NCBI GenBank assembly: GCA_021774735.1
Contig: JAJFIS010000022.1
Span: forward strand, 124,001-188,000
Source of the DNA: Alphaproteobacteria bacterium
Lineage (GTDB): Bacteria > Pseudomonadota > Alphaproteobacteria > Sphingomonadales > Kordiimonadaceae
Length of the DNA: 64,000 nt
Direction of reading: 5' to 3'
Below the pieces are notes generated by a model. The model made no database searches. It was not told the DNA's origin and saw nothing but the letters and a program-made list of their open reading frames with translations. Position 1 is the first letter of the stretch; the number at the start of each line of letters is the position of its first letter. This document shows, one piece after another, positions 47,835 through 58,347 of this stretch. A program made the position numbers and the translations under genes.

Positions 47835-48000
47835 TTACAACATCACACAGACATTATGTTACAGTGCGCGCGCAAGATACGGCGCAAGCCTTGCCTTATC
47901 AAGTTTAATTTTCTACCGCGTTAAATTACGGCTTTAGCCTATATTTTCACACTTCAAACATGCCTTGCATAGCAAAGCATTATCGCTTACAGCTATCCGT

Positions 48001-48200
48001 GATGGTTCTCATGGCCCTCTAGTGGGCTGTGAGTGAAAATGGGAATGCGGTACGAAATAGAGCTTAGATCAGCCCAATTTTTACCCCGCAACTGTGCCCG
48101 CAACTGTATGTGAAGAGCAAATCCAACATGCCACTGGGAAACCGGGAAGGCCGGATGCGCGTTAAAATTCACGAGTCAGGAGACCTGCCATCATGTCGCC
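48001..48200 (+). ncRNA. Cobalamin riboswitch aptamer
   Basis: The leader of the TonB receptor gene carries the B12-aptamer landmarks in order: GTGAGTGAAAATGGGAA near 48030-48044, CGCAACTG-type core elements near 48093-48116, the B12 box GCCACTGGGAAACCGGGAAGG (48130-48150), and AGTCAGGAGACCTGCC (48174-48189). This class binds adenosyl- or methylcobalamin and turns off B12 uptake genes when the vitamin is plentiful. The exact 5' boundary is approximate. The genes downstream are a TonB receptor and BtuFCD, exactly the expected targets. Confidence 0.93.
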
Positions 48201-48229
48201 CATCTGCTGGGTCGGTGCAATCAGGCAGA

Positions 48230-48345
48230 ACGGAAATTCCGTGTTGGCGATATATTCGCCCATGCTCGGGGTTTATCGTCTTTTGATTATTCCGTGCATG
48301 TTTTTTTAAAAACACAGTCCCCAATTGGGACCCACGGAATTAAAC
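48230..48345 (+). promoter_or_regulatory. Likely riboswitch expression platform acting on translation start
   Basis: The octamer ATTCCGTG occurs twice, at 48236-48243 and 48289-48296, and each copy is fully complementary to CACGGAAT at 48333-48340, which lies 6-13 bases before the receptor's ATG and includes its weak ribosome site (CGGAA). The first copy can also fold on itself (ACGGA-AAT-TCCGT). A further hairpin GTCCC-CAATT-GGGAC (48317-48331) lies inside the long-range loop. Alternative pairing would let the aptamer hide or expose the start. This is inferred from complementarity only. Confidence 0.5.
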
Positions 48346-50199
48346 ATGAAACCAACCAATATTTTACTTATATCTTCTCTACTGTCAGGGCTTTCCCCAT
48401 TTACAATTGCCCATGCTGCAGATGGTAATGATACCAATGGCGCGGAAGAAATAATTGTTACCGCAAACCGGCGCGCCCAACCCCTTAGCCAGGTAGGCAG
48501 CAGTGTTACGGTACTCACGGAACAAGACCTGCAGGCAAGCCAGCAAATATTTCTGCTGAATGCCTTAGAGAGCGTCCCTGGCCTATCATCCAATCAAACT
48601 GGGGCTTTTGGCGGTACGGCATCCATATCTATTCGTGGTGCTGGCGGCAATAATACGCTGATGCTATTTGATGGTGTCCAACTCAATGATAGCTCATCAC
48701 CCAGCAATGCCTTTAACTTTGGCACACTGGATACTGCCAACATAGCCCGCATTGAAGTGCTGCGCGGGCCACAATCGGTGCTTTATGGCTCAGATGCCAT
48801 CGGCGGGGTCATAAATGTTATCACCAAAACATACGAAGACGGTTTTGGCGGCCAAGTTTTCGGTGAATATGGCTCGTTCGACAGTTTCCGTGGTGGGGCA
48901 CAGTTGCACGGCGGCAGCGAAGCTTTCGGCTTTAACTTATCCGCAAGCGGCAGCCACAGTGATGGCATCTCAGCAGCGGATGAAAATGACGGCAATAGCG
49001 AGCGTGACGGCTATAAGGACATCACCATAACGAGCAAAATTACTAGTAAGCTCACTGAAAATTTGCGGCTTGAGTTCATTGGTCGCTACGCCGACACTAA
49101 CGGTGAATTTGACAGCTTCGGCCCTGTCGACGGCGACGAAACCGCCCTAACCGAAGAATTAACCCTTGCAGGCCGTGTTTACTATGATGCCATGGACGGC
49201 AAGCTGCAAAATACGCTGTCCGTCGAATATAATAAAATTGACCGCGAAAGTATATCGGGCACTTTCGGGACTTTTGGTGCGGTAGGTGAACTGTTCAACG
49301 TTGATTATATCGGATCCGTAACATTAGGCTCAGGCTGGTCCCTAACCGCCGGAGCACAGCATGAAGCAAGCAAGTCCATCAACGATTCCGCTGATAGCTT
49401 CACGATCAACAGCTTGCTGGCGGAACTTGGTTATGCTTCGGATAATGGGTTAGCCTTGACCGCTGGCATTCGCTACGATGACCATGAAACTTTTGGCAGC
49501 GCAACAACAGGCCGCATCACAGGGTCGTATAATATTAAACAAAGTGGCACACGGCTCTTTGCCAGTTGGGGGGAAGGCTTTAAGGCCCCAAGCATTTTCC
49601 AGCTTACTTTCATCTGTGGTTTTTGTGGCCTGACAGAACCAAGCATAGACTTGGCACCAGAGCGCGCCACCGGTTATGACTTTGGGATTGAACAAAAGAT
49701 GCTAGATGATCGCATTACCTTTGGCGCGACCTATTTTCACCTCACAACCCATGATGCCATTGATTTCACCTTCTTCGCTGGTTACCAAAATGTGTCGCAG
49801 CTTCGCGCCAAGGGCTTTGAGCTGATGATTGATGCCGAGCTTGGCGAGATGGTTAGCCTGAGGGCTAACTATACCCGCAATTTAACCCGGGACATTGACG
49901 CGGGTGTGCGAGTTGCGCGTGAGCCAAGAAACGCCTTTGCAGCCACCTTGAATATTTCACCGTCAGATCGCCTGAACACATCAATTTCCGCGACCTACAA
50001 TGGTTCTGAGCTAAACAGTTTTGGCGCAGGTATACTAGATGATTGGCTCCGCCTTGATGTACGCGCGACCTATGATCTTGGCTCTGGCCTGAGCTTATAT
50101 GGCCGGATTGAGAATATATTCGACACTGAGTATCAGTCAGTTTTGGGCTATGGCACCCCTGATCGGTCTATTTTCGCAGGTATCCGCAAAAGCTTTTAA
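48346..50199 (+). CDS. btuB: TonB-dependent vitamin B12 receptor (BtuB-like)
   Basis: A 617-residue outer-membrane receptor with signal peptide (NILLISSLLSGLSPFTIAHA), TonB box region EEIIVTANRR, a plug domain (VTVLTEQDLQASQQIF, IEVLRGPQSVLYGSDAIGGVINVIT) and a 22-strand beta barrel ending in the aromatic residue of AGIRKSF, recognised by the BAM machinery. It would bring cobalamin into the periplasm using TonB energy. The cobalamin riboswitch upstream and btuFCD downstream make B12 the likely substrate. The start at 48346 is favoured over a TTG at 48325 because the signal peptide then begins correctly. Confidence 0.93.
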   Translation: MKPTNILLISSLLSGLSPFTIAHAADGNDTNGAEEIIVTANRRAQPLSQVGSSVTVLTEQDLQASQQIFLLNALESVPGLSSNQTGAFGGTASISIRGAGGNNTLMLFDGVQLNDSSSPSNAFNFGTLDTANIARIEVLRGPQSVLYGSDAIGGVINVITKTYEDGFGGQVFGEYGSFDSFRGGAQLHGGSEAFGFNLSASGSHSDGISAADENDGNSERDGYKDITITSKITSKLTENLRLEFIGRYADTNGEFDSFGPVDGDETALTEELTLAGRVYYDAMDGKLQNTLSVEYNKIDRESISGTFGTFGAVGELFNVDYIGSVTLGSGWSLTAGAQHEASKSINDSADSFTINSLLAELGYASDNGLALTAGIRYDDHETFGSATTGRITGSYNIKQSGTRLFASWGEGFKAPSIFQLTFICGFCGLTEPSIDLAPERATGYDFGIEQKMLDDRITFGATYFHLTTHDAIDFTFFAGYQNVSQLRAKGFELMIDAELGEMVSLRANYTRNLTRDIDAGVRVAREPRNAFAATLNISPSDRLNTSISATYNGSELNSFGAGILDDWLRLDVRATYDLGSGLSLYGRIENIFDTEYQSVLGYGTPDRSIFAGIRKSF

Positions 50200-50216
50200 A
50201 GGCAGATGGATTAACA

Positions 50217-51107
50217 ATGATAGCAGGGCGTAGAAAATTAAATCCATTAACCGCGTTAGGGGTAGCATGGCTGCTATCCGTGAGCGGTCAAATGGGGGTT
50301 CTGCACGCTGCTAACAAGCTGCCCACTGTTGTGTCCCTTGATTACTGTGCCGACCAATATGTGTTGCAACTGGCCGCCCGCAAGCAAATAGCGGCACTTT
50401 CCATTTTTGCCGACCAAGGCCATTCTTTCTTTCAGGCCAAAGCGAAGGGACTACCCAAAACCCATAGCACTATTGAGGAAATTCTGGCGATACAGCCTGA
50501 CCTGATCATCCAAAGCTATATGGCAGCCCCGCGCATGACCGAACTGACGACCGCTTTAGGCAGCAAAACCATCAATACCAAATATGGCAGTTCAGCCGAT
50601 GTTGTCATGCGTAATATTACCACTATCGCCTCCGCACTTGGCCAGCGCGGCCTTGGTGCACAGTTAACCAAAATCTATGAAAGCCGGATTGCCGCGCTTA
50701 GGGCCTTGCCCAAAAGCCCACTCACCGTTGCTTATATCACTCCCAGTGGCTTCACAGCTGGCTCAGGCACTTTTGTTGACCGAATTATCCAGCTCGCGGG
50801 TTTTACTTCTTACGCAGATGCCCATGGCTATCGAGGTTGGATGCCATTGCCATTGGAAAATTTAATCACCAATCCACCAGATATTTTCCTCACCAGTTTT
50901 TATGATACAGACTTAAAAAATCGTTCGAACTGGAGCCTGAGCCGCCATGCGCGTTTGAATGCCATGATCAAAAATATTCCGACCATTGATCTGCCAGGCC
51001 GCTTTATGGCTTGTGATGGCCTATTTCTGGCTCATGCGGCAGAGCGCATAAGGGCTTCAGCCATAGAACAGAACATTATTCCACACGCGCGTAAGGTAAG
51101 CCCATGA
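50217..51107 (+). CDS. btuF: Periplasmic cobalamin-binding protein (BtuF-like)
   Basis: This 296-residue protein has a signal peptide (ALGVAWLLSVSGQMGVLHA) and a class III periplasmic-binding fold: VVSLDYCADQYVLQLA at the start, then TIEEILAIQPDLIIQSYMA, and a C-terminal lobe with TFVDRIIQLAGFTSYA. It hands cobalamin to BtuCD. The gene lies 17 bases after the receptor and overlaps btuC by 4 bases (ATGA), so all four genes form one riboswitch-controlled operon. The assignment rests on family and context; binding residues are not resolved. Confidence 0.9.
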   Translation: MIAGRRKLNPLTALGVAWLLSVSGQMGVLHAANKLPTVVSLDYCADQYVLQLAARKQIAALSIFADQGHSFFQAKAKGLPKTHSTIEEILAIQPDLIIQSYMAAPRMTELTTALGSKTINTKYGSSADVVMRNITTIASALGQRGLGAQLTKIYESRIAALRALPKSPLTVAYITPSGFTAGSGTFVDRIIQLAGFTSYADAHGYRGWMPLPLENLITNPPDIFLTSFYDTDLKNRSNWSLSRHARLNAMIKNIPTIDLPGRFMACDGLFLAHAAERIRASAIEQNIIPHARKVSP

Positions 51108-52096
51108 GCCGATATCATATCCAAATGGCCGCATTGTCGATCCTAACAATATTGGCAGCTCTTATGTCACTAAGCTATGGCAGAACGGATATCCCTATGG
51201 TTGACATCCTAGGCGCTATTTTCTCTTCTGGTGATGATACCATCAACATCATTGTCCGCGAACTGCGCCTACCCCGGGTCATCCTTGGTATTTTGGTTGG
51301 AGCATCGCTTGGTCTAAGTGGTGCTGCCCTGCAAGGCGTTCTGCGTAACCCTCTCGCGGACCCCGGTGTTATTGGTGTCACGGCAAGTGCATCGCTCGGT
51401 GCGGTGCTCGCCATACATCTAGGGCTAGCCTCACTCTGGCCCATGTTCGTTCCGGTTCTGGCCATGACGGGCGCGATGATAACCACGGCCTTTTTACTGT
51501 ATGTCTCCAACAGGGACACCAGCGTCTTAACATTGATCTTAATTGGCATTGGCATCAGCTCACTGGCAGTGGCCATCATATCTCTGATTATGAATATGAG
51601 TGCTACCCCCATGAGCATCCGTGACATGATCATGTGGATGCTAGGTTCCTTGGAAAACCGCACCACCACCGACGTGATATTGGCACTACCTTTCATTCTG
51701 CTTGGCTGGGTCGCTGTAATGGGAACAGGTCAAGGGCTGAACGCGCTAAGCGTCGGTGAAGAAAGTGCCGCCACCATGGGCATTAATATCAAGCAGCTAA
51801 AAATGCGCGTCGTGATTGGCTCGGCGCTTAGTGTGGGTGCGGCAGTTGCGGTGTGTGGCAGTATTGGCTTTGTAGGGCTTGTGGTGCCCCATATGGTGCG
51901 CGGCCTTATCAGCCAAGAGCCATCACGCATATTGTTACCAAGCGCTATCCTAGGGGCGCTGGTCATCACGCTCGCTGATATATTAACGCGTCTTCCAACA
52001 CCCGGAACGCCGCTCCGGCTGGGGGTGGTTACAGCGCTTATTGGTGCGCCCGCATTTATATACATCATCCTAAAGACACGGGATAGCATGCGATGA
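51104..52096 (+). CDS. btuC: Cobalamin ABC transporter permease (BtuC-like)
   Basis: BtuC, 330 residues, is a FecCD-family permease with about ten transmembrane helices. Conserved elements include LRLPRVILGILVGASLGLSG, GAALQGVLRNPLADPGVIGV and GFVGLVVPHMVRGL, the last contacting the ATPase. The gene overlaps btuF and btuD by 4 bases each. Family members also move ferric siderophores or heme; the riboswitch points to B12 here. Confidence 0.92.
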   Translation: MSRYHIQMAALSILTILAALMSLSYGRTDIPMVDILGAIFSSGDDTINIIVRELRLPRVILGILVGASLGLSGAALQGVLRNPLADPGVIGVTASASLGAVLAIHLGLASLWPMFVPVLAMTGAMITTAFLLYVSNRDTSVLTLILIGIGISSLAVAIISLIMNMSATPMSIRDMIMWMLGSLENRTTTDVILALPFILLGWVAVMGTGQGLNALSVGEESAATMGINIKQLKMRVVIGSALSVGAAVAVCGSIGFVGLVVPHMVRGLISQEPSRILLPSAILGALVITLADILTRLPTPGTPLRLGVVTALIGAPAFIYIILKTRDSMR

Positions 52097-52887
52097 CAAG
52101 CTTAATTGCAGAGGGCATTAGCCTAAACATAAAAACTGCCCGCATTTTGGATGATGTTTCGCTTCGTGTTAAGTCCGGCGAAATCATTGGTCTCATTGGC
52201 CCAAACGGTGCCGGCAAAAGCAGCCTGCTGAAATGCATTTTAGGACTTAACGCGCCCACGTCAGGTCAGGTAATGCTGGATGGTATAGACATCAATAATA
52301 TGGACCTGAAAGAGCGTGCAAGGCAAATGGCTTATGCCGCACAAGGGGCACCAGCCCACTGGCCGCTCACTGCGCTCAGCACGGTCAATCTTGGCCGAGT
52401 ACCGCACCTGAGCCCGTGGCAGGAGATGAGCGCAGAAGATAAACTTGCCGTAGCGGACGCCATGGAACTTGCTGATTGTACCCACCTTAGAGGCCGCAGC
52501 ATCACTACCCTGTCTGGCGGCGAACGGGCACGGGTTATGCTAGCCCGCGTTATGGCAACCGGTGCACCCTTCATTCTCGCTGATGAACCCGTGGCATCGC
52601 TTGATCCAGCACACCAGTTGCAAGTTATGGATATATTGCGCGGCCACGCGCATGGCGGCGGCGCTTGTCTTGTTGTATTGCATGATCTGAGCCTTGCTCA
52701 ACGTTACTGCGATCGTTTGGCGCTTATGGACGGCGGTAAAATGATTGCCCAAGGTGCGACCAGCAGTATATTGTCGGATGGTTATCTAGCCGATGTTTTT
52801 GGCATTAAAGTTTCCCGCTGGGAAAATAGTGGCCAAAGCTTCATAGCCCCCCATAAACTGAATGAACACACTAAGAACCAAACATAA
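52093..52887 (+). CDS. btuD: Cobalamin ABC transporter ATP-binding protein (BtuD-like)
   Basis: BtuD, 264 residues, has Walker A GPNGAGKSSLLKCI, signature LSGGERARVMLARV, Walker B FILADEPVASLD and H-loop VLHDLSLAQ. It drives BtuC-mediated import. It overlaps btuC by 4 bases and ends 12 bases before the convergent cobS-like gene, without an obvious terminator between them. Confidence 0.93.
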   Translation: MTSLIAEGISLNIKTARILDDVSLRVKSGEIIGLIGPNGAGKSSLLKCILGLNAPTSGQVMLDGIDINNMDLKERARQMAYAAQGAPAHWPLTALSTVNLGRVPHLSPWQEMSAEDKLAVADAMELADCTHLRGRSITTLSGGERARVMLARVMATGAPFILADEPVASLDPAHQLQVMDILRGHAHGGGACLVVLHDLSLAQRYCDRLALMDGGKMIAQGATSSILSDGYLADVFGIKVSRWENSGQSFIAPHKLNEHTKNQT

Positions 52888-52899
52888 TAACTCTGCGGA

Positions 52900-53712
52900 T
52901 TACCCTATCGACCAGATAACAGAAAGCAGGACCAACACTGCAAGTTCAGAGGATTGCTGAACCAACCCTATTGTATCAAATGTATGATGGTCAACTTGGC
53001 TAATACTGTACCAACCAACGGTAAAGGCGGTAGAGCAAGCTACGGCAAACATCAGCATAGCCTCAATAGGGTCCGATAACATTATGATCGTACCAAGTCC
53101 AAGAACGAGTGCCACGAACAACCTTCCTGGCGTTGTTTTAGTAAGAACATCAGGCTCTGGTTTTGACTTTTCATTGATCTCTTCCAATCTCTGACTGGGC
53201 GACAAGAAAAATAAAACTACAACAATCATCAAGCGAGATAAAATTGCTGCGGACGCTATGGCGGCGATACACATGCTGGTCGATACTTCGATCATGCTGC
53301 TTGCTTTAACACCAAACAACAAAATTAAGGCCACAGCCCCTACCCCGCCGATAGAGCCTTTTTGCATCATTTCCCTTTTATCTTCAGATGTTTTCCCGTT
53401 GTTAAAAGCATTGACAGCGTTTGCTAATCCCGTTTCATGAATAGCACTCGTGGTCATTGCCATGACCAACAAGCAAAGAAATATTCCAGATGTTAATGAA
53501 ACACCTATGATGGATGACAGTGCTAAAGTGAGGGAGCCGAAGGCCGCAACAACCAAACCAACTAGAGGGAAAACCCACTGAGAACGATTAATGTCTGGCT
53601 TTATCTCAGGTTCAACACCTAATCTAATCGGAATAGATGTCAGCCCATCGAAAGCTGTTGTAACATCTTCAACAATTATTTGCCATTTAGGCGTTTTTTT
53701 AACCTCTGTCAT
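52900..53712 (-). CDS. CobS-like protein (cobalamin synthase family) lacking conserved aspartates
   Basis: A 270-residue integral membrane protein of the adenosylcobinamide-GDP ribazoletransferase family, as shown by FPLVGLVVAAFGSL, the IHETGLANAVNAF block, SIGGVGAVALIL and the late FDTIG segment. Active family members read HxDGLADxxDG followed by a DSRxG motif. Here these are H92-E-T94-G-L-A-N98-A-V-N101 and KGSIG, so the aspartates matching E. coli D82, D86 and D89 are Thr, Asn and Asn. It may be inactive, altered in reaction, or act on something else. The ATG at 53712 has GGGGAG 9 bases upstream; an ATG at 53736 is the alternative. It faces the B12 uptake operon and follows a PnuC-type gene. 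Confidence 0.78.
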   Translation of the reverse strand: MTEVKKTPKWQIIVEDVTTAFDGLTSIPIRLGVEPEIKPDINRSQWVFPLVGLVVAAFGSLTLALSSIIGVSLTSGIFLCLLVMAMTTSAIHETGLANAVNAFNNGKTSEDKREMMQKGSIGGVGAVALILLFGVKASSMIEVSTSMCIAAIASAAILSRLMIVVVLFFLSPSQRLEEINEKSKPEPDVLTKTTPGRLFVALVLGLGTIIMLSDPIEAMLMFAVACSTAFTVGWYSISQVDHHTFDTIGLVQQSSELAVLVLLSVIWSIG

Positions 53713-53900
53713 AGATAATATCTCCCCATCCCCCAATCATCATCGCTTAACTTACTATCAGAGATATCTTTTTAATCATCTCTGGGTGCTATAAGGATAG
53801 TCACACTGAAGAAGATTCATAAATCATAAGGATTTAACACACCCTTAATATGGGGTCATTTTTATCGGATAGTTCAAATAAAGGGCCGGCACAACTATAG
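53713..53900 (-). other. Leader between the PnuC-type and CobS-like genes
   Basis: A 188-base non-coding stretch on the minus strand. It carries the inverted repeat CAGAGAT (53759-53765) / ATCTCTG (53778-53784) about 50 bases before the CobS-like start. I searched it for B12-box and AGTCAGGAGACC elements and found none, so it is not a second cobalamin riboswitch. It may hold a separate promoter. Confidence 0.4.
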
Positions 53901-54506
53901 CTATATTGCAGCTAGCCTTGCTTTTCGCCACTGAATTAGGCCCAATATAACCATACCCAAAAATACTATATAGAGCGCCACTGTGGGATATAACCCTTTT
54001 GAATAATAAAGTCCTATAGCTAGCACATCGACCAATATCCATAATATCCAATTTTCAATATAGCGCCGAGACATCAATAATTGTGCGGTCACACTAAGCA
54101 CCGCAACTGACGCATCCCAATAAGGTGTTGTGGCATCGCTATAATACCCCACTAACTTGCCAAGAATTACAGTCGCCATCCCGCAAACGAAAAGAACTAT
54201 CGAGAAATTTTTCACTGTCATTTGTTCGATGTGGATTTCACCGGAGCTTTCTTTGTCTTGTTGCCAATACCACCAGCCATAAATTTGCATGGCAAAGAAA
54301 TAAAATTGCAATATTGATTGGCTATAAAGTTGACTGTCAAAGAAGATTTTTGAATAGATTGCTACCATCACTATTCCGAACGGGAAATTCCAAATACTGC
54401 GCCGAACTATCAGCGTAATATTTATCAGACCCAATATTACCGCTATAATTTCTAGGCTCGTTCCCCCAAGCATAGCCATTATAAAGTTTGTTGGATCTGA
54501 AATCAT
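53901..54506 (-). CDS. pnuC: PnuC family riboside transporter
   Basis: PnuC-type transporter, about 201 residues and seven to eight transmembrane helices. Family landmarks are WNFPFGIVMVAIYSKIFF, the aromatic MQIYGWWYW, TPYWDASVAVLSVTAQLLMSRR and ENWILWILVDVLAIGLYYSKGLY. Members take up nicotinamide riboside, with relatives for thiamine, riboflavin or deoxynucleosides, by facilitated diffusion with trapping. No NadR-type kinase is nearby. The start at 54506 has GAGGA 6 bases upstream; an ATG at 54512 is too close to it. The CobS-like gene is downstream on the same strand, so a different riboside is possible. Confidence 0.85.
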   Translation of the reverse strand: MISDPTNFIMAMLGGTSLEIIAVILGLINITLIVRRSIWNFPFGIVMVAIYSKIFFDSQLYSQSILQFYFFAMQIYGWWYWQQDKESSGEIHIEQMTVKNFSIVLFVCGMATVILGKLVGYYSDATTPYWDASVAVLSVTAQLLMSRRYIENWILWILVDVLAIGLYYSKGLYPTVALYIVFLGMVILGLIQWRKARLAAI

Positions 54507-54613
54507 CGTCATTCCTCAAATTAAATTTACTTTTACTTTTACTTCTCTGCATCATATTAATTATGAGGATCAAAGTAATTATCGAAAACAGGTCTAAAGC
54601 ACATTGGGGTGTC

Positions 54614-57010
54614 ATGACATATTTTTTACCATTTACTCGATATTTTATTGTGCTGAATCTATTGCTTTTTACAATAGCCGCATCCTTCTCTGCTATGTCT
54701 GATGATGCTTCACTACGATCTCCTAAGGTCAAAAATTTGTTATTTGAGGCCTGCTTTTTCTATTCAGATGTCCAACCAAAATTTGCTTCAATGTTGCCGC
54801 TCTCTGAAGCGGCCAAGTGCAATATAACACCCGAGCGAACCAGAGAGATGACGTGGGCAGTATTAGATGTAAGTAGTGAGCCACAACAGCCCAATAGTGA
54901 TCATCTTCTGATTATTACTCGAAGCTGGCTGGAGCGGGTTGTGGTGCAATTTCATTACCAAGATGGCAGTTGGATTGAGCATGATATTGGCCCATATGAA
55001 TTTGATAATTATTGGTCCGTAGGCAATGATATTGAAGTGAAATCACCTGCCAATGATGCCCCCATTGAAACTATTTTAATTGGTCTACAAGATATATCAT
55101 CGGTCCGTTTGCTGCGCGAGATACGTTTTATGCCTGAGGAGTCTTGGATATGGACAAAATTTTCAAACCACACGCTGATGATATTCATAATTGGCATATT
55201 ATTGTCGATGATATTTTACAATCTGTCTCTGGCCATAACATTTCACTTTAACTTTCAAATCCTATACTGCTTCTTCGTCTTAACCTATCTAAGCTACACA
55301 ATCATCAATTACGGCCTAATAGCTGCCTATTTACCCAATTGGCTTAGCCTGAAGCTACAGATGAATCTATCGATCTTTTTCCTCGGCATAAACGGCACTT
55401 GCGCGATGCTTTTTGTGCCCGCATTCCTTGAGAAGCGGGTGCTAACGGACCGCTGGCGAAAAATGATGTATTTCCTAGCATTCACATACGCCTTATCAAC
55501 CCTCCATTATATCTTCACACGAGGATGGGATACGGACCGAGCAGAGTTTATTTTTGTTATCCTGTCCTCCATACTTCTTATTGTGGTTTGCATCACGATT
55601 GCTCTAGCTATTGTTCGAAAAAGCCGTGCGGCCTATTTTTATCTAATAGCCTGGCTGATGCCTGTTATTGGTCTTGTCTTAAGGCTATTGCGTTCTTTTG
55701 AATTGATTGAAACCTCTACTTTTGTCGAATATAGCATCTCAATTGGTATCGCCTTAGAGACAATCATTCTGTCCATTGGGATTGTAGACCGCATCGGCAT
55801 AATCCGTAAGGAACGAGATACGGCCCTTGCCAAACGGGAACAGGCTGAAACTGCTAATGCAGCAAAGTCTGACTTTCTTGCCCGCATAAGCCATGAATTG
55901 CGCACCCCCTTGCATGCAATTTTAGGTCTCAGCAATATGCTGCAAAAAGAAAAAAGCAAAAAAGAACAGCAAAAAAATATCCTGAATATTCAACGTTCCG
56001 GTGACGCTCTATTGCAAATCATCAATGACATTCTCGACTTTTCAAAAATCGAAGCCAGTAAGATGAAAATCGAGATGGTTTCTTTTGAAACCAGTGAAAT
56101 TTTAGATACGGTCAATGCCATAATCCAGCCTGCAGCATATAATAAGGGCCTTGCCTATGTGGTAACAGGCAAAGATACTATGCCCTTAAAACTGATTGGC
56201 GATCCGAACCGAATTAAACAAATATTGATTAATCTTACCACCAATGCCGTAAAGTTCACCGATAACGGAACAGTATCTATTACCATCGAATGCCCCCAAA
56301 CTAGCAAAAATACATTTGATTTAATTTTTCATGTCCAAGACAGCGGCATTGGTATGAATGAAAATCAGACTACACATCTTTTTCACGCTTTCACTCAAGC
56401 GGACGAGACAATATCAAGGAAATATGGCGGCTCTGGCCTAGGGCTAGCCATATGCAAACAGCTGACCGACCTTATGAACGGGGAATTATGGGTTGAAAGC
56501 AAACTTGGCGAGGGTAGCATTTTTCACGCGAAAATACCCGTCTTTCTATGTCCTGAAAAGGAAACTATATCAGGCACAATTAGCGCTGAGACTTTTGCAG
56601 AAAAGTCCATAAAAAACTATAGCGATCTGAAGGGAAAAAATATTTTAATTGTCGAAGACAATCCCGTAAACCAGATGCTTGCGGTCAAAATTCTCAAATT
56701 AGCAGGCATCTCTACTGACGTGGCGAATGACGGCCAACAAGCAATCACCAAAGCCAGTAACAACTCATATGACCTGATATTGATGGATATTCAAATGCCC
56801 GTAATGGATGGGCTAGAGGCCACCCGACAGCTTCGCCAGCTACCAAAAACCAAAGACATCCCTATAATCGCGGCTACGGCGAACACTATGATGGATGAAA
56901 TTGAAACCGCGCATAAAGCTGGGATGAACCATTATATTGCTAAGCCCTATTCACCTGCCACTTTAATCAAAGCCATCAGTGATGTTCTTGGCAAGAAATT
57001 AAAGGTTTAG
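54614..57010 (+). CDS. Hybrid sensor histidine kinase with 7TM-DISM input domain
   Basis: A protein of about 798 residues. Order: signal peptide (YFIVLNLLLFTIAASFSA), periplasmic 7TMR-DISM extracellular domain (DIGPYEFDNYWSVGND, LIGLQDISSVRLLREIRF), seven transmembrane helices, a short coiled coil, HisKA with His427 in RISHELRTPLHAI, the ATPase with N-box NLTTNAVKFTD, DSGIGM and GGSGLGLAICKQL, and a C-terminal receiver with Asp725 in LILMDIQMPVMDG. DISM domains are thought to bind carbohydrates or other small ligands. The output partner, probably a phosphotransfer protein, is not nearby. An ATG at 54563 could be the start instead. It is divergent from the PnuC gene. Confidence 0.9.
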   Translation: MTYFLPFTRYFIVLNLLLFTIAASFSAMSDDASLRSPKVKNLLFEACFFYSDVQPKFASMLPLSEAAKCNITPERTREMTWAVLDVSSEPQQPNSDHLLIITRSWLERVVVQFHYQDGSWIEHDIGPYEFDNYWSVGNDIEVKSPANDAPIETILIGLQDISSVRLLREIRFMPEESWIWTKFSNHTLMIFIIGILLSMIFYNLSLAITFHFNFQILYCFFVLTYLSYTIINYGLIAAYLPNWLSLKLQMNLSIFFLGINGTCAMLFVPAFLEKRVLTDRWRKMMYFLAFTYALSTLHYIFTRGWDTDRAEFIFVILSSILLIVVCITIALAIVRKSRAAYFYLIAWLMPVIGLVLRLLRSFELIETSTFVEYSISIGIALETIILSIGIVDRIGIIRKERDTALAKREQAETANAAKSDFLARISHELRTPLHAILGLSNMLQKEKSKKEQQKNILNIQRSGDALLQIINDILDFSKIEASKMKIEMVSFETSEILDTVNAIIQPAAYNKGLAYVVTGKDTMPLKLIGDPNRIKQILINLTTNAVKFTDNGTVSITIECPQTSKNTFDLIFHVQDSGIGMNENQTTHLFHAFTQADETISRKYGGSGLGLAICKQLTDLMNGELWVESKLGEGSIFHAKIPVFLCPEKETISGTISAETFAEKSIKNYSDLKGKNILIVEDNPVNQMLAVKILKLAGISTDVANDGQQAITKASNNSYDLILMDIQMPVMDGLEATRQLRQLPKTKDIPIIAATANTMMDEIETAHKAGMNHYIAKPYSPATLIKAISDVLGKKLKV

Positions 57011-58347
57011 ATGTTACCGAGCAAGGTGATTTGAGGGTCCCCACTTCGTCCTTTTCCAGGGGTTTGAACCTCCCCTATCTGACCAAAATTTAAGCTATCA
57101 AATGTGTCGCAAGTCCCACATAAAACTGTCCATTGCTCTGCTTTTACACCGCAATGACCACATGTCCAGCCGGTGCTATCAACCATTTGCGCGGCCTTTG
57201 CAATCGCTTCTGATGGATCTTCATCCATTTTGGGCAATAGCTCAGCATATGCATCCCACACCGCTTTACTTGGGTCATTTTCAAGTAGCCCTGCCAAAAT
57301 ATCCCGCGCCACACTTAAATGGTCCGCCGATATCTCTGCTTTCGCCAGCGCTAACAGGGTCGTTGGATGCAGTGCATGATCCGATGTAAAGTCTCGTAGG
57401 CGAACCAGCTGTCTAGTCGGCGTTTCATTGGGCTCTACGGCCATAAAAGCCCGAAGAATATCAGGATGCTGGGTGGCATTATAGGCCTTCTTCAAAGCGG
57501 CTTTTGCTTTGCGGGCTTGCCCAATCTTTATCATAAGACCTGCTTGTAAAATATACGCTGGCACCAATTTTGGACGATCTTTTATCGCGGCCTTAACCGC
57601 TGATAGCGCGCCAGCACGGTCCCCTTTAAGGTCCAACATTTTTGCTTCACCAAAATATAGCGCCCCTCTGTGCTGAGTTGACTGTCTGGCATCAAACACT
57701 TGACGTTTAGTCGCTTTTGCCAAAGTCTCTCGTGCCAGATCAAATTCTCCACTGCGCACCTGCAAGCTAAAAAGCAAGTCTAAGGCCCAGCGATTGCCGC
57801 CATCACTGTCCAGGGCCTTGCTTGCCAGCCGTTTGGCTTCACCAAATCGACCTTGGGACCGTGCTTGCTGCGCCAAGCCGCGTTGACCCAACAATTTACC
57901 ATCTTTCATACTCTCAAGCGCTTTAAAGCGCTCTGTGGCGGCATCATCGTCGCCTATACGCATGGCAGCTTCAGCCCCCACTAAATGGATCATCGGTTGG
58001 GGTGGCAGCAGTAGCTCAGCTCGCTCAATTAACCGCAGCGCCCCCTTGGCGTCATCTGCGGCCAGCGCTACAACGGCTTGATTGAGCAGAGCAAGACCGC
58101 GCCCTTGCGACTTAACCACGCGGTTACTGCCCAAAAGGGGCAATTCACGGCGTAAATAACCCGTGAGCCATACTAGAGCGGCAACCACAACCACGACCAC
58201 CGTCAATAATAACATTAGCGCTGCAAAGCTGGTATGAAGTTCAAAACTTTCAAAGGCAATGACCGCAGTACCTGCATGATCTGCAAGCCATGCACCTCCT
58301 ATGGCTAACGCTAAAACAATCAGGAAGAAAATGACAAGACGGCTCAA
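57007..58347 (-). CDS. HemY-like TPR membrane protein
   Basis: A 446-residue protein of the HemY N-terminal family. Two N-terminal membrane helices (LVIFFLIVLALAIGGAWLAD and SFAALMLLLTVVVVVVAALVW) precede a long row of TPR-like helices, and a small zinc ribbon with two Cys pairs (CGHCGVKAEQW and CGTCDTFDSLNF) lies at the end, as in other alphaproteobacterial members. It is named from its place in heme operons but has no proven enzymatic role; it is probably a scaffold. Its stop overlaps that of the convergent kinase gene by 4 bases, and its start overlaps the mitofilin gene by 4 bases. Confidence 0.9.
   Translation of the reverse strand: MSRLVIFFLIVLALAIGGAWLADHAGTAVIAFESFELHTSFAALMLLLTVVVVVVAALVWLTGYLRRELPLLGSNRVVKSQGRGLALLNQAVVALAADDAKGALRLIERAELLLPPQPMIHLVGAEAAMRIGDDDAATERFKALESMKDGKLLGQRGLAQQARSQGRFGEAKRLASKALDSDGGNRWALDLLFSLQVRSGEFDLARETLAKATKRQVFDARQSTQHRGALYFGEAKMLDLKGDRAGALSAVKAAIKDRPKLVPAYILQAGLMIKIGQARKAKAALKKAYNATQHPDILRAFMAVEPNETPTRQLVRLRDFTSDHALHPTTLLALAKAEISADHLSVARDILAGLLENDPSKAVWDAYAELLPKMDEDPSEAIAKAAQMVDSTGWTCGHCGVKAEQWTVLCGTCDTFDSLNFGQIGEVQTPGKGRSGDPQITLLGNI

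Follow-up and report, generated by a model that had tools for sequence, protein, structure and literature searches.

A CobS homolog lacking key active-site aspartates, opposite a cobalamin uptake operon in an alphaproteobacterium, is a candidate pseudoenzyme

Why does a reading frame for a cobalamin synthase (CobS) homolog persist opposite a vitamin B12 uptake operon when essential aspartates of its active site have been replaced? The question arises in the window, the 64,000-nucleotide stretch of alphaproteobacterial DNA analysed here, where the initial annotation had pointed to a CobS-family gene facing a riboswitch-led B12 uptake operon. This arrangement was correct: a cobalamin riboswitch leads a btuB-btuF-btuC-btuD operon on the opposite strand, and the stop codon of btuD, the last gene of the operon, lies 12 nt from the end of the cobS-like gene. 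The locus comprises:

47986-48206, forward strand: cobalamin riboswitch (RF00174, 93.6 bits)
48325-52887, forward strand: btuB-btuF-btuC-btuD uptake operon, convergent with the cobS-like gene and separated from it by 12 nt
52900-53712, reverse strand: open reading frame of the candidate CobS-family pseudoenzyme, 270 amino acids from the ATG, stop codon included in the coordinates, with a Pfam match
53722-53727, reverse strand: Shine-Dalgarno-like GGGGAG, 9 nt upstream of the ATG, read directly
53901-54512, reverse strand: pnuC, nicotinamide riboside transporter family, across a 188-nt gap upstream of the cobS-like gene on the same strand (Pfam 191.9 bits; TIGR01528 122.6 bits, cut-off 42.45)

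The frame at 52900-53712 is open, yielding 270 amino acids from the ATG at 53712 or 278 from an alternative TTG at 53736. The PF02654 (CobS) profile matched it with 92.3 bits (cut-off 23.2), covering profile positions 2-207 of 207, and AlphaFold2, run with a 44-row alignment, gave a model with a mean pLDDT of 91.1 and a pTM of 0.89, weak only in the stretch 177-187; part of this confidence derives from the homologous sequences in the alignment. With a match spanning the full profile and a mean pLDDT of 91, chance similarity is no concern for the CobS assignment. The long helices predicted with high confidence, together with a hydropathy profile that correlates with the family at r = 0.88, indicate a polytopic membrane protein, and the membrane segments had indeed been described from the outset as well formed. 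A sequence search of the PDB found no convincing CobS relative (best E values 0.62 and 0.25), and a fold search with the model returned no match at E <= 0.001. Promoter and terminator scans gave scores about equal to those of shuffled sequence, and Rfam found no riboswitch upstream of the cobS-like gene. The G+C content of the gene is 43%, against 49% for the whole window; it is lower (0.39-0.44) throughout window positions 53000-57200, a segment that spans the cobS-like gene, pnuC and a putative hybrid histidine kinase and has flanks near 0.50.

The active-site regions of the protein are the following:

53404-53439, reverse strand: loop 2, HETGLANAVNAF, residues 92-103, with D82 replaced by T94, D86 by N98 and D89 by N101 (58-homolog alignment)
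53347-53361, reverse strand: KGSIG, residues 118-122, replacing DSRxG, with Asp at column 118 in 58/58 homologs
52966-52989, reverse strand: loop 6, HHTFDTIG, residues 242-249, replacing GxxGDxxG, with Asp246 and Gly249 retained (alignment)

In the CobS of Salmonella Typhimurium, whose numbering applies to D82, D86, D89 and D229, the two motifs read 80-HxDxxxDxxD-89 and 225-GxxGDxxG-232 (PMC8092220). Table 1 of that paper records no growth of a cobS-dependent strain with the D82A, D86A, D89A or D229A variants in any of the six tabulated cobinamide conditions; the paper reports growth of the H80A, G225A and G232A mutants in some or all cobinamide conditions. The window protein departs from both motifs. 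In the block IHETGLANAVNAF (residues 91-103), the loop 2 sequence HETGLANAVN preserves only the His among the motif letters, and in loop 6 the Asp and the last Gly are present and two glycines have given way to His242 and Phe245. What is retained is H92, E93, R160, D246 (D229 in Salmonella) and G249. The alignment of 58 homologs drawn from its order and class, in which row L029 has an internal stop as extracted and row L037 is a fragment, has Asp in every homolog at the columns of T94, N98, N101 and K118. The initial reading of an intact CobS-family frame (92.3 bits to PF02654) with Thr, Asn and Asn at its active-site aspartates and KGSIG in place of DSRxG was thus borne out, the Asp-to-Lys change at 118 falling within the KGSIG block. 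Its matching of Thr94 to the critical D82 was right as to position, but the mutants had been made in S. Typhimurium CobS and not in the E. coli enzyme (PMC8092220).

Since Thr, Asn and Asn stand at D82, D86 and D89, and the D229 equivalent is retained, three of the four acids essential for growth are missing. The cobalamin synthase activity of the window protein is almost certainly lost, judged by sequence, because three individually essential residues are absent and CobU, the maker of one substrate, was not found in the genome. That the protein is still a working CobS that uses other ligands is an idea that the overall PF02654 match would favor, but it is very probably wrong: D82A, D86A and D89A each abolish Salmonella CobS function (PMC8092220), neither CobU nor a canonical CobT was found in the genome, and the protein scored under the cut-off of all six NCBIfam CobS models that it matched (51.6 against 110 for TIGR00317, 93.9 against 273 for PRK00235, and four more). 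An intact CobS used as a control (L021) cleared TIGR00317 (119) and none of the PRK00235 models.

The content of the genome (2.78 Mb in 51 contigs, completeness 100%) fits this loss. Its profile search returned one CobS match, the window gene itself, and no match to CobU; CobO was not found either, and the match to the BluB model, at 45 bits, falls far short of the required 150. The only CobT-family protein is a diverged one. MetH and a PduO-type adenosyltransferase were found. By its gene content, as covered by a genome-wide search for the pathway apart from CobC and CobQ, the genome looks like one that imports and uses B12 and cannot assemble the nucleotide loop. Within the window, tblastn with a relative's proteins found neither cobC nor cobQ.

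The neighborhood suggests where the gene came from. In G009 (L048) and G002 (L047), two other members of the family, btuB-F-C-D, cobQ, cbiB and cobO on one strand face bluB, cobC, cobS, cobT and cobU, and several further relatives have the same two-sided layout with fewer genes. Compared with this ancestral cluster, the window locus has kept the uptake genes and cobS, the sole biosynthetic gene left there. The cobS-like gene would lie opposite the uptake operon because it is a remnant of the ancestral B12 cluster, as in the relatives. In a first tree the window protein pairs with the CobS of another member of its family (L021 of G004; support 90/83) inside a seven-row set supported at 98/92; a second tree gives 89/78 for the pair and 95/96 for an enclosing six-row set. 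The end branch of the window protein measures 1.99 in the first tree, against 0.80 for L021, and its row was flagged as long-branched, the exact place in the tree being less certain than the wider group. Judged by its grouping with the CobS of its own order and by its syntenic place, the window gene is an orthologous remnant of the ancestral cobS.

Likeness to the canonical adenosylcobinamide-GDP ribazoletransferase CobS/CobV (PF02654, TIGR00317) extends to length, membrane profile, the full-length match, H92-E93, R160, D246, G249 and the position of cobS. The window protein differs in having Thr, Asn, Asn and Lys for D82, D86, D89 and the DSRxG Asp, in the loss of two loop 6 glycines, in missing the NCBIfam equivalog cut-offs, and in a genome where CobU was not found and CobT is not canonical. 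The G004 protein is the nearest tree neighbor of the window gene and comes from the same family, but it has all four aspartates and the shorter end branch, and its gene lies in a cobU-cobT-cobS-cobC cluster facing cobO (L006).

If catalysis is gone, the open frame could simply be a gene in decay, a cobS under no selection after loss of the pathway whose frame has stayed open by luck. This main rival explanation is somewhat unlikely, and a good part of the evidence accords with it. From the most to the least conserved classes of alignment columns, the window protein retains 13/23 (the class at least 95% conserved), 12/23, 18/40, 22/66 and 19/100; in the most conserved class all 58 other proteins retain at least 20 of the 23, and where conservation is lowest the window protein is near the bottom of the others' range. 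Its residue loss thus appears fairly even, being similar at every level of conservation, as expected of relaxed selection. The long branch and the G+C of 43% against 49% point the same way, as does the frequency with which CobS has disappeared completely in the family, where a match was undetected in 22 of 28 genomes.

Against decay stands, in the first place, the frame itself. Neutral drift to the observed divergence, simulated from the genes of five relatives with either of two transition biases and a retained fraction sampled from the posterior of 13/23, left a stop-free frame in 0.2-2.7% of runs before indels, and with frameshifts added at an assumed 1 indel per 10 substitutions an open frame was far rarer. 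The hydropathy correlation of 0.88 lies within the range of other CobS proteins, which has a minimum of 0.77 and a median of 0.91 when L029 and L037 are excluded, and exceeds the neutral mean by about two standard deviations, since drift to 60% identity from four start genes with stops forbidden gave mean values of 0.71-0.75 (standard deviation 0.06-0.08); the best of 150 neutral runs reached 0.86-0.90, so that the value of the window protein was attained for one to two of the four start genes. If the variable N-terminus and a gap of one residue in a single relative are set aside, there is one internal length change with respect to the five relatives, and it is in frame:

53125-53148, reverse strand: in-frame 8-residue insertion, about residues 189-196, relative to five relatives (pairwise alignment rows)

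The Shine-Dalgarno-like site is also still there, and dN/dS is below 1 in two pairs of other dead CobS genes, described below. Taken together, these observations argue that selection at the protein level acted on the window gene after catalysis was lost, a signal too weak to exclude decay. The initial statement that this is not a decayed gene thus gains from the improbability of a neutral stop-free frame and from the dN/dS values elsewhere, but it falls short of proof, given residue loss that is even across the conservation classes.

Altered CobS homologs also occur elsewhere in the class. We read the motif in 118 other alphaproteobacterial homologs (58 aligned and 60 from the low-scoring end of the matches listed, with G511 left out), a non-random sample from about 216 genomes with a match. 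All four aspartates are retained in 112 of the 118. The remaining six, which belong to four other families, have lost D82, D86 and the DSR Asp: G687 and G764 from one genus, G525 and G708 from another, G496, and G512 (L182, L183, L184, L186, L187 and L188). None of the 60 fetched frames contains a stop, the G512 frame including a few unread bases, and each of the six genomes has one CobS match. Like the window protein, these homologs have open frames and lack these three aspartates; unlike it, they carry other replacement residues, keep an Asp at the D89 column in four of six cases (G687, G764, G496 and G512) and occupy separate places in the tree. In the second tree all but G512 group with intact CobS of their own families, and a single clade of the window protein and these five, a grouping named after the tree had been seen, was rejected (p-AU 1.2e-10). 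The fewest changes on the tree are five when G512 is included, whose own place is unsure because of a long branch. On this phylogeny, the loss of the aspartates arose independently in these homologs. Plasmid records contained 9 distant CobS matches.

The two pairs allow selection on dead CobS genes to be estimated. By the Nei-Gojobori method, with some dS values near saturation, dN/dS is 0.30 for G525/G708 (pN/pS 0.44, bootstrap 0.35-0.54) and 0.63 for G687/G764 (pN/pS 0.76, bootstrap 0.66-0.90), compared with 0.07-0.26 (pN/pS 0.16-0.43) in seven pairs of canonical CobS. An altered loop 2 residue is common to both members of each pair: one pair has Arg at the D82 column, the other at the D86 column. 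The loss is therefore probably older than the split within each pair, and the purifying selection would then have acted on a non-catalytic function. These figures come from other CobS pairs because no second genome of the window's genus (g1) was among the genomes listed. Near relatives of the window gene were likewise not found in contig scans of a collection that may omit them: 27 pattern matches in a first scan included no relative, and none came from a second scan with the pattern HExGLANxxN[AG]F.

One of the altered homologs lies in a locus whose history resembles that of the window, as far as gene content indicates. In family f109, genomes with an intact CobS (L189, L190) have cobQ, cobO, cobU, cobC and cobS beside cobT, followed by RegB-like and RegA-like genes. 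G496 of that family (L187) keeps cobC, its altered cobS and cobT at the locus with a btuB-F-C set nearby, and cobU, cobO and cobQ were not found within the 19.9 kb of locus sequence. At L187 8699-11315 the altered CobS has as neighbors a CobT that scores well, at 280.7 bits, and a CobC-like phosphatase, and the three are flanked by an ankyrin-repeat protein and RegB/RegA-like genes.

The initial annotation had offered either a pseudoenzyme that may help assembly or sensing, or a changed reaction. There is good support for the loss of catalysis by CobS and no positive evidence for a changed reaction; an enzyme with a rebuilt site carrying out some other phosphotransfer or condensation seems highly unlikely. 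Such an enzyme might account for the retention of H92, E93, R160, D246 and G249 and for a fold predicted with confidence, but four aspartates have become Thr, Asn, Asn and Lys, the replacements are unlike those of the other pseudo-CobS proteins, and no neighboring gene points to a substrate.

The explanation we prefer, with a probability of roughly 0.6, is that the gene encodes a CobS pseudoenzyme, dead as a synthase and kept by selection for a non-catalytic role at the membrane or with corrinoids. The lineage would have given up nucleotide-loop assembly and would rely on imported cobalamin. The window protein would no longer work as a cobamide synthase, a step close to shown with the essential residues gone and CobU not found. 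An intact polytopic membrane protein would have been retained, most likely because selection favored a non-catalytic role present in canonical CobS to begin with; retention for such a role is suggested because the frame is open, the membrane profile is retained and other dead CobS genes are under purifying selection. As to the role, we would guess at a membrane docking site or corrinoid-binding site for B12-handling proteins, and a dead CobS with its membrane body retained is most economically viewed as a scaffold or putative corrinoid-binding protein. Canonical CobS has been proposed as the anchor of a membrane complex for the late steps, and the association of CobC with liposomes depends on it (PMC8749415). 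In the same paper, overproduction of inactive D82A CobS raised ethidium accumulation as the wild type did, which its authors read as a loss of proton motive force.

Counting against the pseudoenzyme reading are the even residue loss, a frame statistic of only 0.2-2.7% and neutral hydropathy maxima of 0.86-0.90, as well as the 22 of 28 family genomes in which CobS went undetected, loss being ordinary there. With an Asp at D89 in four cases, the loss in the other six dead CobS proteins is less complete, the same-strand neighbor pnuC is not a B12 gene, and the upstream region has no Rfam riboswitch. The broader idea that dead CobS is a recurring selected pseudoenzyme, a scaffold repeatedly kept and re-tuned for corrinoid handling or membrane anchoring in alphaproteobacteria that abandon assembly of the nucleotide loop and depend on imported B12, is a doubtful one.

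Published work calls the reason for the membrane location of CobS unknown or unclear (PMC8092220, PMC8749415). A CobS that has outlived its chemistry would, if true, separate the two functions and provide a natural test of the non-catalytic role. There is also a warning for annotation, as a PF02654 match is easily taken to mean cobamide synthesis or salvage, which would be wrong here and in 6 of 118 other homologs. Among the matches listed in the literature searched, titles and abstract openings contained no report of inactive CobS homologs.

Two other cobamide-related proteins of the window genome were considered alongside CobS. Survival of CbiB was rejected, as the sole CbiB-family match is barely over the Pfam cut-off (35.6 against 34.4 bits) and far below the NCBIfam CbiB models (12.7 against 165.9 for TIGR00380); the gene (L121 7927-8871, C15 of the same genome) has an ankyrin-repeat protein on one side and RegB/RegA-like genes on the other. 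The sole CobT-family match is a diverged paralog whose 61.5 bits exceed the Pfam cut-off of 22.6 but come nowhere near the thresholds of the NCBIfam CobT models. We also set aside the idea that CobS and CobT were lost as a pair in this genome: the diverged CobT occurs in 26 of 28 genomes of the family, 21 of those 26 without a CobS match. Classed by place, it sits outside the canonical cluster in these 26; G001 has the canonical copy only and G027 has none. The Glu of LGEASG is missing in the copy of the window genome (L046 10118-11089, C42) and in 25/25 aligned family rows, and it is present in three relatives of family f4. From these sequences (L057-L085 besides the copy of the window genome) the protein looks like a conserved CobT-family pseudoenzyme, and it might, with the CbiB-like protein, be part of the same repurposed system as the window's CobS. 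Beside the CobT-like gene, L046 7084-9976 encodes an apparent fusion of ThiF-type and nitroreductase-type domains and a GNAT-like acyltransferase, names assigned by eye, and L046 11407-14760 encodes a large protein with long repeat runs of Gly-Gly-Ser-Thr-Thr-Thr type, where long open frames also occur on the opposite strand and in another frame.
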